In this document: piece by piece, positions 42,081 through 64,000 of the stretch | Numbering within the stretch: position 1 is the stretch's first letter | Layout of the letters: each line of letters starts with the position of its first letter | Assembly (NCBI GenBank): GCA_007922195.1 | Contig: ML682024.1 | Coordinates: 3,024,051-3,088,050, forward strand | Reading direction: 5' to 3' | Length of the DNA stretch: 64,000 nucleotides | Origin: Podocnemis expansa | Lineage: Eukaryota > Chordata > Testudines > Podocnemididae | Made by a program: the position numbers and the translations under genes | Notes under the pieces: model-generated | Databases searched by the model: none | Seen by the model: the letters and a program-made list of their open reading frames with translations, nothing else | What the model was told of the DNA's origin: nothing

Positions 42081-45000
42081 TCATTTGATACAGTCCATCA
42101 CATGGATCTGTAGGGTATCCATGTCCGGAGCCTGGTACTGGCACTTGGGACAGCAGAAATCTGGCTGCTCCTCAGAGATACTTCTCCGGAGCCCTGCAGC
42201 AGGCAGGGGCTGGAAGGGTACCATGGGCATGTTGTAAACTACAGAGGAAAAAGAAAAAGTTACTGTCCTGGAGACTGGCACAGCCCCACAAATGGCCCCA
42301 CTGTACTTGTGCCTGGAATACCTGCTCTTCAGATGCCCCTTAAAGGCCTAGGCCATAAGCATTCCCCACTAGAGAGAGTTTTAAGACTCACCTGCCTGTG
42401 GGATAAGTGTGCGCCCCTCTGAATGGCGGTTCCTCATCTCTTCCATCAGAGCCCTTTGTAAAAACAGCAAGAATGTTGGGGGAAAGGCAGATGCCAAAGA
42501 AGAACCTCATCATTCCCTCCCTCCCCCAGTGAGCACTAAAGTGGGGCTCAAACCTAACCTACCCCACCTCTGGACTCAGGCCAGTGGTCATGGCTGAAGC
42601 CAGTCACCAGCATCTCCCTCAGGCTCTCCAAAGGAGTCCCAAGGGACTAAACAGCTGTCTGCAGATACAGAAAGCTGCACTGAGCTCTGACCCACCCACA
42701 GGCCCAGACCCAATAGCTGGGACCACACAAAGGGCAGGTGCTTGAGGGAGGTCAGAGAAAGGCAGTGCTCACCAGGTGGCTCCATCAGCCTCTGCTTTCA
42801 GCTTGTCATAGACCTGCCGCAGCTGCTCCAACTGTTCCTGCAGAGCCTCCCGCTGCCCATGGAGTTTCTCCCGGGCTTCACGCTCTGCCAGGAAGTCTGC
42901 CTTGTAGATATCAGCCTGCAGGGGAAGTACAAGTGACACTGCCCTTCAGCAACTATGCATGGTTACGTGTCCCCCCCACTACCCACCTCCTCTCCCCTAG
43001 CACTCACCTGGGCCTTCAGCACAGGGATGGTCTCCAGCACAATCTTTTTCTGCTCCAAGTCCTCCTTTAGCTTGTCAATCAACTCCTGCTTGACCACCAG
43101 GGCCTCCTCAGCCTGCTGCAGCTGCTGCAGCAGCTCCTCCAGGTGTTTCTCCATGGCCTGGAATGGAAAAACATACCCACAAATGGCTTACAGCTATGTC
43201 CCTGGGGTGCCAGGATTAGGGCTGGCCCCAGCAATGGAGCCAACCAGGCCACTACCCCCCGCCCCCAACCAGTCCCAAACCCACCTGGCTCCTCTTCTCG
43301 GTCTCTAGGCTGGATTTCACATGGCCATCATACTCCTGGAAGAGCTGGTGATAGGCAGCCTGGAGCTGGGCCAGCTTCCTCCTGAGGGATAACTGTGAGG
43401 TCAGAGAGCAGCTTCCTGCCTTAACCCATTAACTGCTCCCATCCGCTCATGTACCATGCCGCCACCACCACCACAGCTCTCCCTCCCTATGACCAGACAC
43501 TCCTGCTCTCAACATCCACTCACTTCTCCTCAGTGGCGCTCTGCCTCTCCACACGCAGCGCTGTCTCCAGGTTCTGGGCTTGCATGCGAAGCTGGTCCAC
43601 CTGCACGCTGTGCTGCCTGTGCAGTACCTCAGCCTCCCCCTCCATCTTGCGGCACCGTTCGTTAGCAGCCTGTGCTCTGGCACACCAGGCAGGGGAGAGA
43701 TACCAGTGTTAGCAGGCGCCTCCATCACAACCTCTACCCCATTAATGTGCCCCTAGATGGCCAAAGCCCATGTCCCACTTCCAGTCTCTCAGGACATTCC
43801 TGCAGCTAGACTAGCTTGCCACCCACCCTAGCAGAAATCTCACCAACACAGGGAAATGTACACACTCACTCCTTCTCTAGATCCCGCTTGTCCAGCATAC
43901 AGGCCTCCAATCGGCTCTGGCTCTCCTGCAGCTCCCCCAGCAGTGAGGTTACCTGGGCTTTCACAGAGGCCCTGTCCTCTGTCAGCTGCTGCAGAATGGG
44001 AAGAGACCATGCATAACACATCCCGCCCACCTCAAGGTCACACAGCCCGGGGAATCTAGATCCAGAAAGCTTGTGAGGCTGCCATGTGCTTGGATGGGGC
44101 CTACCCCCAATCTCCCTGTTCTACTCCCCACTAGGGAAGTGAGCCCAGCCTGGGCTTCTGGACACCTCTTGCTCCCTTTCCCACTTTCCTGACTCCCTGA
44201 AGGAGGTGACTGACTGAACTAGAGACTGCTACCCAGTGGGTGCAGAAAGGTTAAAAAGCGAGCAGAAAACAAGAGGGGACGTCTGTGTCCTGTCTGTGGA
44301 TTGTTAAAGGGCTGGCTGGGTCAACAGCTAATCTCAACATTGGCTTCTCTCCACTGACCTACAGGCTTCCAGAACAGCAACCATGTGACTGATAAACCTG
44401 ACTCTGGTTGGCTGAGGTACATGGGTTCCTGCAGAGTGTAAAACTCTCTCCTGGGGGGTCTCTTTCAGCATCATGAAGCAGGAGGGCTGGAGTCCAGGAG
44501 CTGTCTCTGAGGCAGTAAAGCTGATAACCTGCCCTGATGGAAGAGGGTGACCATTGGCGGCAGGGTGGTGAGCTACTGGTGTTCTGATCCCATGGGTAGC
44601 TGACTGGGGGAGCATTTACCTCCAATTGTTTCCTCAGGGCCTGAACCTGCTGCTCTGCCTCATGTGCCCTGGCTCCCAGCTGGGCCCGCTCCTCCTGCAC
44701 AGATGCCAGCTGCTGCTTCAGCCTCATGCTCCTGCCATGGGATCCACAGTGAGCAGGTGATGGATCAGTGCTCAAAGCCTCGCCACCCCCACTCAGTGCT
44801 GGGGGCCTTGCACTCCCCTCCTATCAAGCCCAAGTTTCCATTTCTTAGTGTCCCCACAGCCTCCTCCCACAAGCCTGACTCACCCCCAACTGCTGAGAAC
44901 GTTCTGTGCCCCTCTCCCCACATGTTTCCCCACCAGCATCCCACCACCTCAATGCAAACACCAATGCCAATGCTGGCCCCACCAGCACAGGCCCAAACCG

Positions 45001-48000
45001 GCAACCAACTTACTCATTCTCTGTCTCCTTCAGCCTCCTTTGCAGCAGCTCAGCTGCATCCTCCCTGCTCCCAGGCCTGAAAGGACACAAAGGGTGGTGA
45101 GGGACACCGAGCAGGTCAGAGCCTCCCCGAGTTGGTGCTCAGATCCTGAGAAATCTCTGCTCCCCTCAGTCACAGCCACTTCCTTGGCTCACAAACCATC
45201 ATTCAGTCCTACCACAGATGAGGTGGCCTATGATGTCCACCCATGAGGATGCCTCTTGTTTCATCTGCAGAACTTGCCCCATTGTCCTCCCAAATGGGGA
45301 AAAGGACACACAGCGTAAGCGAGGCTGGGCAGCACTAGGGGTCCCACAGCCTCACTGTATCATTTCTTCCAGAGTACAACCATTCTTACCGTCCATCCCC
45401 AGCACCCTGCAGGGCTTCCGACTCCACAGGTCTCTCCAGCTGGACCCCATTCTCCTGTGAATGAGACCAGAGCCACTGAGCACCACCATGACTCCTGCCA
45501 GAACCAGCCTGACCCCACCCCATCCCCCTGATGGAATGGTCCCAGGCTGAACAGAGCCATCCTGACACCTCCAGGAGCCAGGTCTCAGGGATGGGTCATC
45601 CAAGGAACCTGCTAAAAGGAACCCAGAACTGTAAAGAACATGGAAGCTCCAGAGAGCCAGAGCATTGACACCTAACAATCCACCACTTGAAGGAAACAGG
45701 TTCTCCTCCACAGCAGGGAAGATAAGCAGAGACCAGCTGGAGAACAAACTGTTCACAGGGGGAGGACGCTGCCAGCTCTCACCTGGGACTGAGGGGGACC
45801 AAGAGAGACAGCCTGATGGACTATGTCTCAATCTTGATTTCTCTATGGGAATGTAAAGATGCCCCATATTGGATTCCAGCTGACTAATAAACCCCTCTGT
45901 TCTGGAAATGCTGCCTACTGTTTATGCAAATCCCAGCTGGCTGCATTAGTCCCTGCACTGTGTAAGCGTTCCTGACCAAGAGTCTCTCTCAGCTGGCCTT
46001 GATGAGCAGAGCAAATAGTGTGAATCAGGCATGCTGGATCCCCAAGGCTGAGAGTAGGGAGTGAGGCTGCAGGGCCTGGCTGCTGTTAGTTGAGTTTAGG
46101 CTCTAGCACACGTTCTGAGATTTTGTTTCCAACATGTCTCTTGGCACTTCTGTTCTCTGTTAAATTAACACTTGCATGTCTGTGACAATGTCTGGAAGAG
46201 CTGAGAGATAAGCAGCATTGCAATGTGAGGTGCAAGTACTCAGCTGTGCTCTATTGTTCCCTTGGGAACAGCTGGTCTGGTAATTCTGCAAGCATGCAGT
46301 GGGTCAGGGCTGGGTACTCCATGAGGACGCTTGGCCATCACTGTCCTGCCAAAAGGGTGGGGCTTCTGCAGCCTGTAGTCACGGCTGCCAGGGAGCTGGC
46401 TGCTAGTTTAGCATGGCCAAGGCTCCCTCATACTAAGGGCAGGTGGGAGCGAGGTGTCTTGCACCCTGGAGAGAGATGGGAGCATTACAGTTAATGCTCA
46501 GACCCCTGCAAACTTCTGCATTCCCATCACCTCACCACCCATGCGTTCCCCCTCACACACCTCTCACTGCCCCCAGCAGCTTCCTTACCTTCACCTTCAC
46601 CTTCACACCAGCCTCTCCTGTGGACTGCACTTGCTGCTGGAGAGCCAGTTTCTCCTTCTGTAAAACCTGGTTGGCCTCCTGGAGCTGCTCGAGCTGCCCC
46701 TTCAGCAACTGCAGAGTCTCCAAGCCAGGGACCTGGGGAATGAGGAGCATGAGAAATGGATATCACATCACATTTCCCCCACAGCCAGTGTTCCCACCTT
46801 GCTCCCCACAGTGCCTCCTGCTGCGAGAGGCCAGGTGCTCTGCCCAGGCCACAGGGGCCACAATGTGTAAAGCCCTGCAAATCCACACGGATACAACACT
46901 GATATCCGTGGACCATTTCTTGCAGATACAGGTTGAATACAGATCCACTTATTTGTATCAATGCAGGACTCTAACAATGTGCCTTTTCCCTTCTAGTGTC
47001 TCATTAGCATAGCTACAGATGAGGCAAGCAGGTACGTACTCCCCTATTCAGGGAAGGGGTATTCTATTACTCAGGCAATTGAGGATTAAGTTAGGGGAGA
47101 TTTCTCTCCCTCAACTCTCCTCCCCAGCAACTCTCACCATCAAAGGATCTGCCAACTCCTGGGTCAGGGTCGTAGTGTCCGATTCCTCTGGCTCAGGTAT
47201 TTGCTTCTCCAGGGAGCTCGGCTGGGAAGTTACAAAAGAGCCAGACGTCTCAGAGGAAGCAGTGTCCCTGACCCACCTCCCAACTCCCTGTGGACCTACT
47301 GTGGAAAAGAACTGGGGCAGAAACACTGGGCACAAAGGGAACCAGAGAGATTGATATCCCCTCCTGGCCATAGTGCTGGGCACAGGAGATACAGCAAAAA
47401 TATGCCAACCCCCTTTCCCCTCGGTTAGAGGGGATAGGAAATGCTGATACCTGCTGGCTTCCCTTGAGCTGCTCCACCTCATGAAAGGCCTGCTCCAGTT
47501 TGCGTTTCATCTCGGTCCGCTCGGCGTTCAGTTTCTCCACAACGTCCCGGGCCTCCTGGAAACGAAGCATCAGGAACTCCTTCTCCTCACGCTGTGCTGC
47601 CTGGAAGCGCTGGAATTCCTGGTAGCGCTGCCTCAGCATCTGGTTACTTTGCCGAATGGCCTCTGCCATGGGGATAGGGAGAGCGTGAGGCTCCCTGCAG
47701 CAGCCCAGTGCTAGCTTGGCTTGTGCCTGCTCTTTGTGGCAGTTACAATCCTTACCAGCTCTCACTCCTCCCCCTGTCACCAAGGGGGAATTCTGGCAGT
47801 GTTTTTATGATTCCCATGTGTGCCTCTACCTCTCTCTGTGTTTTGCATTCCAGTGCAGGGAGTGTAAAGGGTAAAGAAGCTGCTCTTGGGGCACTGCAGG
47901 AGCTTTGAGGTGTTCGTGTCACCTAGACAACTGAGACTATATGAATGGGTTGCTTAAGGATTGCAAACACCCCTATAAATGGATGATCCAGAAAGACAAG

Positions 48001-50792
48001 GGGAACCACAATGCCAGAGCCAGGATGGGCCAGGTCACACCTAGCAATAACCAACAAGTAGGAGATTCCCCCACCCCTAAGCTAAGCAAAAGCCCCAGCT
48101 GGAGAACAACTGGGAAAGTGGCAGCTGGATGGATGAAATGCTAACCTTTGGAAACAGACATGTACATGCATCAAGGACAGAGAGACAGAGCCAAGATAGC
48201 TTCTGTGCTAACCCATGGACTCTCAGATTTTGTATTTAGGTGATGAATAAATCAATTGCTTGTTTGAAAAGTTCCCTGATGTTACTGTGAATACATCTGG
48301 GGCCCACAGCATCATAGAAATTAGAAGGGACCACGAGAGGTCATTGAATCTAGTCCCCTAAACTCATGACAGAGCCAGGTACCCTCTCCCTGACAGGTGT
48401 TTGTCTAACCTGCTCTTAGACGCTTCCAATGATGGAGATTCCACAAAAAGAGAAAGAGTCCTGTGCCACTTAAAAACCAACAGATTTATTTTTCACATGA
48501 GCTTTCACGGGAGAAAATCCCACTTCCTCAAAGGCTTTGAAGATGGAGGAACTTACAGAATGGAATGAAAATAAATAGGCAACTTATGCTAGTGTTTAAT
48601 CCCCCTGACAGTTAGGAATTTTTCCCCTCATGTTCAACATAAGCCTTCCTTGCTGTAAGTTAAGTCCATTGCTTCTTGTCCCTTCATTGACAGATAAGGA
48701 GAACAATTTTTCTCCCTCCTCCTCATGACAACCTCTTAGGTACTTTGAAAACTATTATCCTGTCCCCTTTTAGTCTCCTCTTTTCCAGACTAAACAAAAT
48801 CCAGCTCTTTCAACCTTCCCTCATAAGTCAAGTGTTCCAGACCCCTAATCATTCACGTTGCTCTTCTCTGGACTTTCTTGAATTGTCCACATCTTTCCTG
48901 AAATGAGGCACCCAGAACCAGACACAATACACCAGTTGAGGCATAATCAGGGCAGAGTAGAGCAGAAGAATTACTTCTTGTGTCTTTCTTACAATATTTC
49001 TGTTAATACATCCCAGAATGGTGTTTGATTTTCTTTGTAACAGTGTTACACTGTCAATTCACATTTAGCTTGTGGTCCACTACGACATCCACATCCCTTT
49101 CCACAATATCCCTTCCTAGACAGTCATTGCCCATTTTGTACATGTACAATGGATTTTTCTTTCTTAATTTGAGTATTTTGCATCTGTCTCTAGTAATTTT
49201 TTTTTCTATTCACCTTGGACCATTTCACCAGTTTGTCCAAATCATTTTGAATTGTAATCCTATCCTCCAAAGCACTTGCAACTCCTCCCAGCTTGGTATC
49301 ACTCTCAAACTTCGTAAGTGCACTCTCTATGCTATCATCTAAATCACTGATGAAAATATGGAACAGAACCAGACGCAGAACTGATTCTTCCAGCACCCTG
49401 CTCATTACAGCCTTCCAGCATGACTGTGAACCATTGATGACTACTCTCTGTGGTCGGTTATCCAACTAGTTTTTCACCCATCTTAATTAGCTCCATCCAG
49501 GCTGTACTTCCCTACTTTGTTAATGAGAAGGTAACGCAAGACCGTATCAAAAGCCTTACTAACGTCAAGTTACACCATATCTACCCCTTCCCCTCTATCC
49601 ACAAGGCTTTCTACCCCATCATAGAAAGATATCAGGTTGGTTTGACACAAGTTGTTCTTGACAAACCCATGCTGACTATCACTTAGCACCTTATTCTCTT
49701 CTAGATGTTTGCTAATGGCTTCCTTAATCATTTGCTCCATTATCTTTCCTGGCACAGAGATTAAGCTGACTGGTCTATAGTTTTCCTTAGTTCCCTTTTT
49801 ATAGATGGGCACTACATTTGCTTTTTTCCACTCCTCTAGGACCTTTCCAGTTTTCCATGATTTTTCAAAGATAATAAACCAGGGGTCTCAAAACATGTGG
49901 CCCCGAAAGCTATTTCCTGTGGCCCGCAACAACACTACCGTTACTGATATTTGCAATATTGTTGTATGGAAAGGTTTCAGTGGTGCAGTCCTCAGGCTAA
50001 TGTACCAGCCCTCATGGTGATTTGAGTTTGAGACCCCTGTAATAAACCATGGCTCAGATATCTCCTGAGTCAGCTCCTTGAGTATCCTGATGGGGTCTGG
50101 CTTGGCTGGATTCCATGCAGGGACCCATAGGGAGACAGAGGGATTTACTGGTGCCTAAAGTACCAGGCTTGGAGGCCACAGGGTTGCTCCTCTGAACTGA
50201 AGGGGCGCTTGGGGCCCAGCCCACAGAAGGGGTCACTGCCCAGGGACTGACTGCAGGCCAGGCGGTGCACAGACCATACCCTGTGGATCCATGAGACCCT
50301 CACTTTTCAGTTTCCTCCTTCTGCCAGAGGATTTATTTCATTCATTCGTCTCCAAGGATGACTTCCCCCACCCACTCCCAGAGGGCACCTGGCCTCTGCT
50401 GTGTGGACGGGGTAGATTTCCACCTTCCTGATTGTCTTTATCCTAATCGGCGGTACAGCCCCTTCGCACGTGACTAGGGATCGGTGACTGCTGAAAAGCG
50501 TCCTCGAGCAAGTCAGAAACAGAGACCGGGAGCTCCGCCCCCGGGGTGACGGGGAACAGGCGCCGCGCAGCGCCCCGGCCCTGGGTCCCCCCGCGGGGCC
50601 GGCCCCTCCCCCACCCTTACCCTTCAGGTCCTGGTTCTCGGCCAGGAAGCGCTGCAGGACCTCGTGCCCGGCCAGCTCCGGGGGCAGCTGCCACGCCGCC
50701 GCCTTGCCCAGGGAGGAGTCCTCGCCCAGGGCACCGAACTCGCCGCCCGGCTGCACCATCTCGCAGCTGCGGCGCTGCCGGGTCCCGTTCAT
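42081..50792 (-). CDS. IKBKG: NF-kappa-B essential modulator (IKK-gamma), long form
   Basis: NEMO is the regulatory scaffold of the IKK complex. It binds IKK kinases at its N-terminus and linear ubiquitin through its UBAN coiled coil. Coding exons in transcript order: 50792-50621, 47662-47451, 47221-47138, 46732-46589, 45454-45390, 45076-45014, 44731-44620, 43988-43870, 43676-43524, 43381-43285, 43157-43008, 42915-42773, 42453-42392, 42238-42081. All phases join, giving 577 residues. The N-terminus has CEMVQPGG and [12 protein letters not shown] words. UBAN exons read [20 protein letters not shown] and [18 protein letters not shown]. The last exon ends with the CCHC zinc finger ([18 protein letters not shown], then HVMDC). 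The five exons 47221-44620 have no mammalian counterpart that I know (human is 419 residues). The start matches the human MN...CEMVQP. The frame is also open upstream to 51059. Confidence 0.95.
43985..43991 (-). other. IKBKG: NAGNAG tandem splice acceptor in IKBKG
   Basis: On the minus strand the exon boundary reads TGCAGCAG|CTG, so splicing can use either AG. This would include or omit one Gln without changing the frame. Confidence 0.5.
44620..47221 (-). other. IKBKG: Five extra in-frame IKBKG exons (156 codons)
   Basis: Exons of 84, 144, 65, 63 and 112 bases total 468 bases, and each has consensus acceptors and donors with matching phases. They lie between GSQQ and [12 protein letters not shown], where human NEMO is continuous. 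The second and fifth encode heptad-like coiled coil ([38 protein letters not shown]). The first is acidic. The paralogue optineurin has a similarly placed longer insert. Confidence 0.8.
48300..49870 (-). mobile_element. CR1 LINE in IKBKG intron 1
   Basis: The minus strand encodes CR1 reverse-transcriptase fragments ([19 protein letters not shown] at about 49730-49790; then [15 protein letters not shown] and DTKLGG) and ends in the CR1 3' region near 48305. A Penelope-like terminus interrupts the 3' region at 48445-48577. The frame is broken. Confidence 0.85.
48445..48577 (-). mobile_element. Penelope-like 3' end inserted in CR1
   Basis: This minus-oriented terminus ('agagtcctgtgccac', 'gagctttcacgggagaaaat') has a mutated hammerhead core. 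The CR1 sequence continues on both sides, so this is a later insertion. Confidence 0.75.
49880..50039. mobile_element. hAT-type MITE with perfect 8-bp target duplication
   Basis: CAGGGGTCTCAAA and TTTGAGACCCCTG are inverted. TAATAAAC flanks both ends (49872-49879 and 50040-50047). It is 160 bases long and inverted relative to the copy at 19395-19591. Confidence 0.87.

Positions 50793-52052: not shown

Positions 52053-64000
<11,948 letters not shown>

Follow-up and report, generated by a model that had tools for sequence, protein, structure and literature searches.

The question raised by this locus is whether the five additional exons in a turtle IKBKG gene truly belong to the coding sequence of NEMO and, if so, whether they are a novelty of some lineages or the remainder of an older form of the protein. 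The window (the whole 64,000-nucleotide stretch of Podocnemis expansa DNA that was analysed) contains an IKBKG gene of 14 coding exons, all joining in phase, that occupies 50792–42081 of the minus strand. G6PD adjoins it head to head in divergent orientation, an arrangement also known from human, and because G6PD stands beside it the gene is assigned to IKBKG and not to OPTN. At 85% identity, NEMO from the side-necked turtle Pelusios castaneus is the closest of the best 120 of 902 database matches, and the top 23 rows among the matches listed are all turtle NEMO orthologues. The features of the locus are as follows.

50621–50792, minus strand: first coding exon of IKBKG (172 nt, ATG to donor, ending in phase 1 and joining LK(E)AIRQ)
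47451–47662, minus strand: exon with the first coiled coil, the IKK-binding part (Pfam NEMO PF11577, residues 41–105, E 7e-20)
47138–47221, minus strand: X1 (84 nt, phase 0-0), an acidic loop with a 10-residue motif
46589–46732, minus strand: X2 (144 nt, phase 0-0), a short helix at the position of the optineurin leucine zipper
45390–45454, minus strand: X3 (65 nt, phase 0-2), a loop with the LQGAGD motif
45014–45076, minus strand: X4 (63 nt, phase 2-2), in which the second helix begins
44620–44731, minus strand: X5 (112 nt, phase 2-0), second helix
43870–43988, minus strand: IKBKG exon with a 20-residue marker sequence, core of the intervening domain, with a CAGCAG acceptor
43676–43524, 43381–43285, 43157–43008, 42915–42773, 42453–42392 and 42238–42081 (stop), minus strand: remaining IKBKG exons
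58998–59303, 59434–59634 and 62792–63127, plus strand: G6PD exons in three pieces (Pfam G6PD_N and G6PD_C)

All of X1–X5 (47221–44620) are flanked by AG and GT, and together they insert exactly 156 codons between the exon that ends at 47451 with a 10-residue motif and the exon that starts at 43988 with a 12-residue one. The predicted protein measures 577 residues when X1–X5 are included and 421 when they are left out. The exon lengths (84, 144, 65, 63 and 112), their joining in phase and the gain of 156 residues given by the original prediction are thus all reproduced, and X1–X5 are regarded as genuine coding exons of turtle IKBKG. Three Pfam domains were found in the turtle protein, all above their cut-offs, namely NEMO, CC2-LZ (E 1e-26) and the C-terminal zinc finger (E 6e-16). 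Placental NEMO shares these domains, the same flanking exons and the G6PD neighbour, but lacks X1–X5, the human row having 418 residues as against 577. Two small variations were seen at the exon borders. The CAGCAG acceptor (43985–43990) precedes the QLTEDRASV exon, whose first Q is missing in several turtle rows, which would fit splicing to the second AG. X2 ends, beside its donor site, in a tandem GTGAAG repeat (46589–46606) that encodes three VK units, whereas the long NEMO of Pelusios has two and is annotated in a form without X1.

The spread of the block was followed in a protein search that returned 902 matches below 1e-10; the best 120 were compared, comprising 87 non-placental rows, 32 placental rows and one other, most of them gene predictions, with one bird and no fish or frog among the matches listed. 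The number of residues between an FQEAR-type motif and a 12-residue motif served as the measure of spacing. Among these 120 of 902 matches it was 133–267 residues in 82 of the 87 non-placental rows, the other five being unmeasurable, in contrast to 40–41 residues in 31 of the 32 placental rows; the one further row, belonging to neither group, gave 41. For the turtle protein studied here the value is 197 with the block and 41 without it. The protein accordingly carries the block of about 90–170 residues, located after the first coiled coil and ahead of KAQVTSLL, that marks the long, non-placental type of NEMO, while in the placental rows among the matches listed the first coiled-coil exon is joined straight to the counterpart of exon 43870–43988. 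The 32nd placental row, armadillo NEMO isoform X1 (P0099), has a spacing of 65; the roughly 25 additional residues found at this junction are unlike X1–X5 and may be either a new or a retained stretch.

Whole or in part, the block occurs in the listed NEMO proteins of turtles, squamates, tuatara, alligator, echidna, marsupials, caecilians and salamanders. Among the matches listed, all of X1–X5 can be made out in the echidna row, and X2–X5 in the ten marsupial rows, where X1 is unrecognisable, as it is in the amphibian rows. The five unmeasured rows (P0077, P0081, P0082, P0106 and P0114) are two from Dromiciops, a partial Chelydra, a partial Gekko and the emu; both Dromiciops rows show X2–X5. 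In emu NEMO (P0114), X3–X5 are present, X2 is missing and X1 is barely alignable, and the block may have been shortened independently in birds. A query consisting of the block only matched 30 proteins, all from turtles and squamates, a result that reflects the reach of that search and not the true spread of the block. The expectation that related sauropsids would possess similar exons was confirmed. The claim that the exons are absent from mammalian NEMO holds for the listed placental rows, but is ruled out for mammals as a whole by the echidna and the marsupials, which carry all or most of them; for the same reason the proposed loss in mammals has to be restated, the loss having apparently been placental.

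The second line of evidence comes from the paralogue optineurin, for which the original prediction had pointed to extra sequence at the same place; homologous-looking extra exons are indeed located there. Like turtle NEMO, optineurin has an additional zipper and coiled coil at this position, whereas X1 has no counterpart in it. The positions of the optineurin introns were taken from printed variant names: the accessible text of PMC2268851 yields introns at c.166, 552, 626, 779 and 882, that of PMC5974248 an intron at c.1242, and that of PMC6018216 one at c.1401. Excluded were the PMC2268851 entries c.708-53 (intron 7, not fitting c.626), c.1978+101 and c.1979-48 (both past the 1734-nt reading frame), together with c.1410+4 of PMC5974248, for which PMC6018216 prints c.1401+4. 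Each of the seven introns usable from these texts has the phase of a turtle NEMO intron, namely of those that follow the first exon, X2, X3, X4, X5, E6 and E7. Three of them, after the first exon, at X4/X5 and at E7/E8, fall in the same codon in both proteins; X2/X3 matches within two residues and X5/E4 within one in the NEMO–optineurin alignment, and at X3/X4 and E6/E7 the match is limited to phase, optineurin exon 8 being 90 nt longer in the case of X3/X4. With the excluded entries set aside, the printed intron positions and phases of optineurin exons 6–9 are thus matched by X2 onward. A gap of 51 residues was present in 6 of 119 optineurin rows, and its size fits the 153-nt exon 627–779.

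The most economical account of both lines of evidence would be an ancestral long NEMO that was shortened on the placental line. We consider it likely, at a probability of roughly 0.78, that X1–X5 represent an older and longer form of NEMO, with X2 onward matching optineurin exons 6–9, which predates the NEMO/optineurin split and was lost toward placentals. The middle of long NEMO from X2 on would then be the exon-for-exon counterpart of these optineurin exons (zipper, loop and coiled coil), and the block would have existed before the two genes parted. On the placental line the NEMO block would have been lost and the first coiled-coil exon then joined directly to the intervening-domain exon, so that human NEMO is probably a shortened form. 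The direction of this change is read from the spread among species and from optineurin.

The strongest competing explanation is that NEMO acquired the block within tetrapods and that it has no relation to the middle of optineurin, coiled-coil exons having been inserted independently in both genes. It is favoured by the sequence comparisons, in which similarity to optineurin was no higher than similarity to unrelated coiled coils. In profile-versus-profile tests with all 120 optineurin rows, the X2 profile scored 26.4 against the optineurin zipper when built from 52 NEMO inserts and 32.5 when built from the 15 inserts of amphibians, echidna and marsupials, and neither score was reached by any of 400 register-keeping shuffles. 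Heptad-block shuffles, run with an earlier profile and fewer optineurin rows, nevertheless reached the observed score of 25.0 in 7 of 200 cases; X4–X5 also matched the optineurin zipper off the diagonal (scores 21.1–22.5); and for the part after the LIR, 17/300 and 145/300 shuffles scored at or above the observed value. Searches of the PDB with the insert profile and with axolotl X2 as query matched CENP-E and other coiled coils, and not the optineurin zipper chains 9ikq_C and 9m0o_A. The sequence tests are thus mixed: in view of the shuffles by heptad block, the off-diagonal match and these real coiled coils, the zipper scores do not by themselves prove homology, and because unrelated coiled coils match equally well, zipper similarity alone is, as judged from the sequences, not decisive for the kinship of NEMO and optineurin.

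The same explanation draws on the LIR of optineurin (DSFVEI). At the corresponding place the xLIR pattern was found in 0 of 52 NEMO inserts, although two lizard rows have it elsewhere, and the retention of an optineurin-like LIR in the NEMO block is thereby ruled out. Against independent gain stand the shared place in the gene, the succession of intron phases 0, 2, 2, 0 in both genes, and the X4/X5 intron, which interrupts the same codon of an LKE motif when the two proteins are aligned with no reference to introns. Two unrelated insertions are consequently regarded as unlikely. The idea of an ancestral NEMO/optineurin spacer, with which the analysis started, therefore stands as far as shared intron positions and phases are concerned, but the similarity of the coiled-coil part does not rise above that of unrelated coiled coils; the case for homology with optineurin is made chiefly by gene structure, that is, by place, order and intron phases.

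A considerably less probable explanation is that the five exons are mainly a matter of gene prediction, seldom used, and that the 421-residue form is the working protein. Single exons are indeed skipped in predicted isoforms, X2 in eight turtle and lizard rows among those examined and X1 in several, but every one of the 82 measured non-placental rows among the matches listed keeps at least part of the block. The reading frame and motifs are retained from amphibians to turtles: LQ[GS][ASTG] occurs in 44 of 52 inserts, the amphibian ones included, and the DTxT[LI]T-type motif of X1 in 33 of 52, though in 0 of 5 amphibian and 1 of 10 monotreme or marsupial inserts. Compared with Pelusios, the Podocnemis sequence is about 84% identical over X2–X5 (107/128) and 96% identical over the next five exons (213/222); the block changes faster than the core and yet is far from neutral drift within its frame. 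Least probable of all are several independent placental losses instead of one on the placental stem, given that a spacing of 40–41 residues recurs among the matches listed in Afrotheria, Xenarthra, primates, rodents, carnivores and bats.

An AlphaFold2 model was obtained for the Macrochelys orthologue (P0003) from 42 aligned rows, with a mean pLDDT of 72.4 and a pTM of 0.25. It consists, in this region, of a loop (131–163), a helix at low confidence (165–188, pLDDT about 48–57), a further loop (189–228), a second helix (229–286, pLDDT about 62–78) and a long rod from residue 292; the two helices are consistent with the two coiled-coil blocks predicted from the DNA. The solved NEMO chains matched by the turtle protein cover no residue of the block. 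In the proposed mechanism, the IKK-binding helix is separated from the ubiquitin-sensing rod by two linkers and two helical parts: a flexible linker is followed by a short zipper helix, and another linker, bearing the conserved LQGAGD motif, by a second coiled coil. The block would serve as hinge and spacer, and probably also for docking, and would loosen the mechanical coupling between the two ends of NEMO; isoforms that omit X1 or X2 could adjust this effect.

In the models described in the accessible text of PMC10694592, strain that arises at the IKK-binding helix is transmitted by way of the intervening domain. Should the block prove ancestral, these models would refer to a derived, shortened machine, and the NEMO proteins of marsupials and reptiles would offer ready-made natural variants in which coupling could be tested against the short spacing. 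The optineurin zipper was placed at residues 143–164 in the accessible part of PMC2902519, which reports a roughly five-fold drop in Rab8 binding for a zipper mutation. In one paper the zipper is regarded as an addition peculiar to optineurin; with an ancestral block, the view that zipper and LIR are extras of optineurin would need amending for the zipper. It is a speculative and rather doubtful extension that placental NEMO is a derived, truncated scaffold and that non-placental NEMO, as the older form with an optineurin-type zipper and an LQGAGD docking motif, may bind optineurin-type partners (for example a small GTPase such as Rab8) and possess a looser hinge toward ubiquitin than the human protein. 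No report of a placental loss of the NEMO block was found in the literature searched, although Supplementary Figure S4 of PMC10694592 may include long NEMO rows, and for fish NEMO the same literature gave no usable sequence or length.

Two repetitive elements were also observed in the window. The first large intron of IKBKG harbours a LINE-like reverse-transcriptase piece on the minus strand (49573–49887, extending to about 48500; Pfam RVT_1, E 3e-7), and the G6PD region contains a perfect 35-base tandem repeat of 2.1 copies at 60318–60390.
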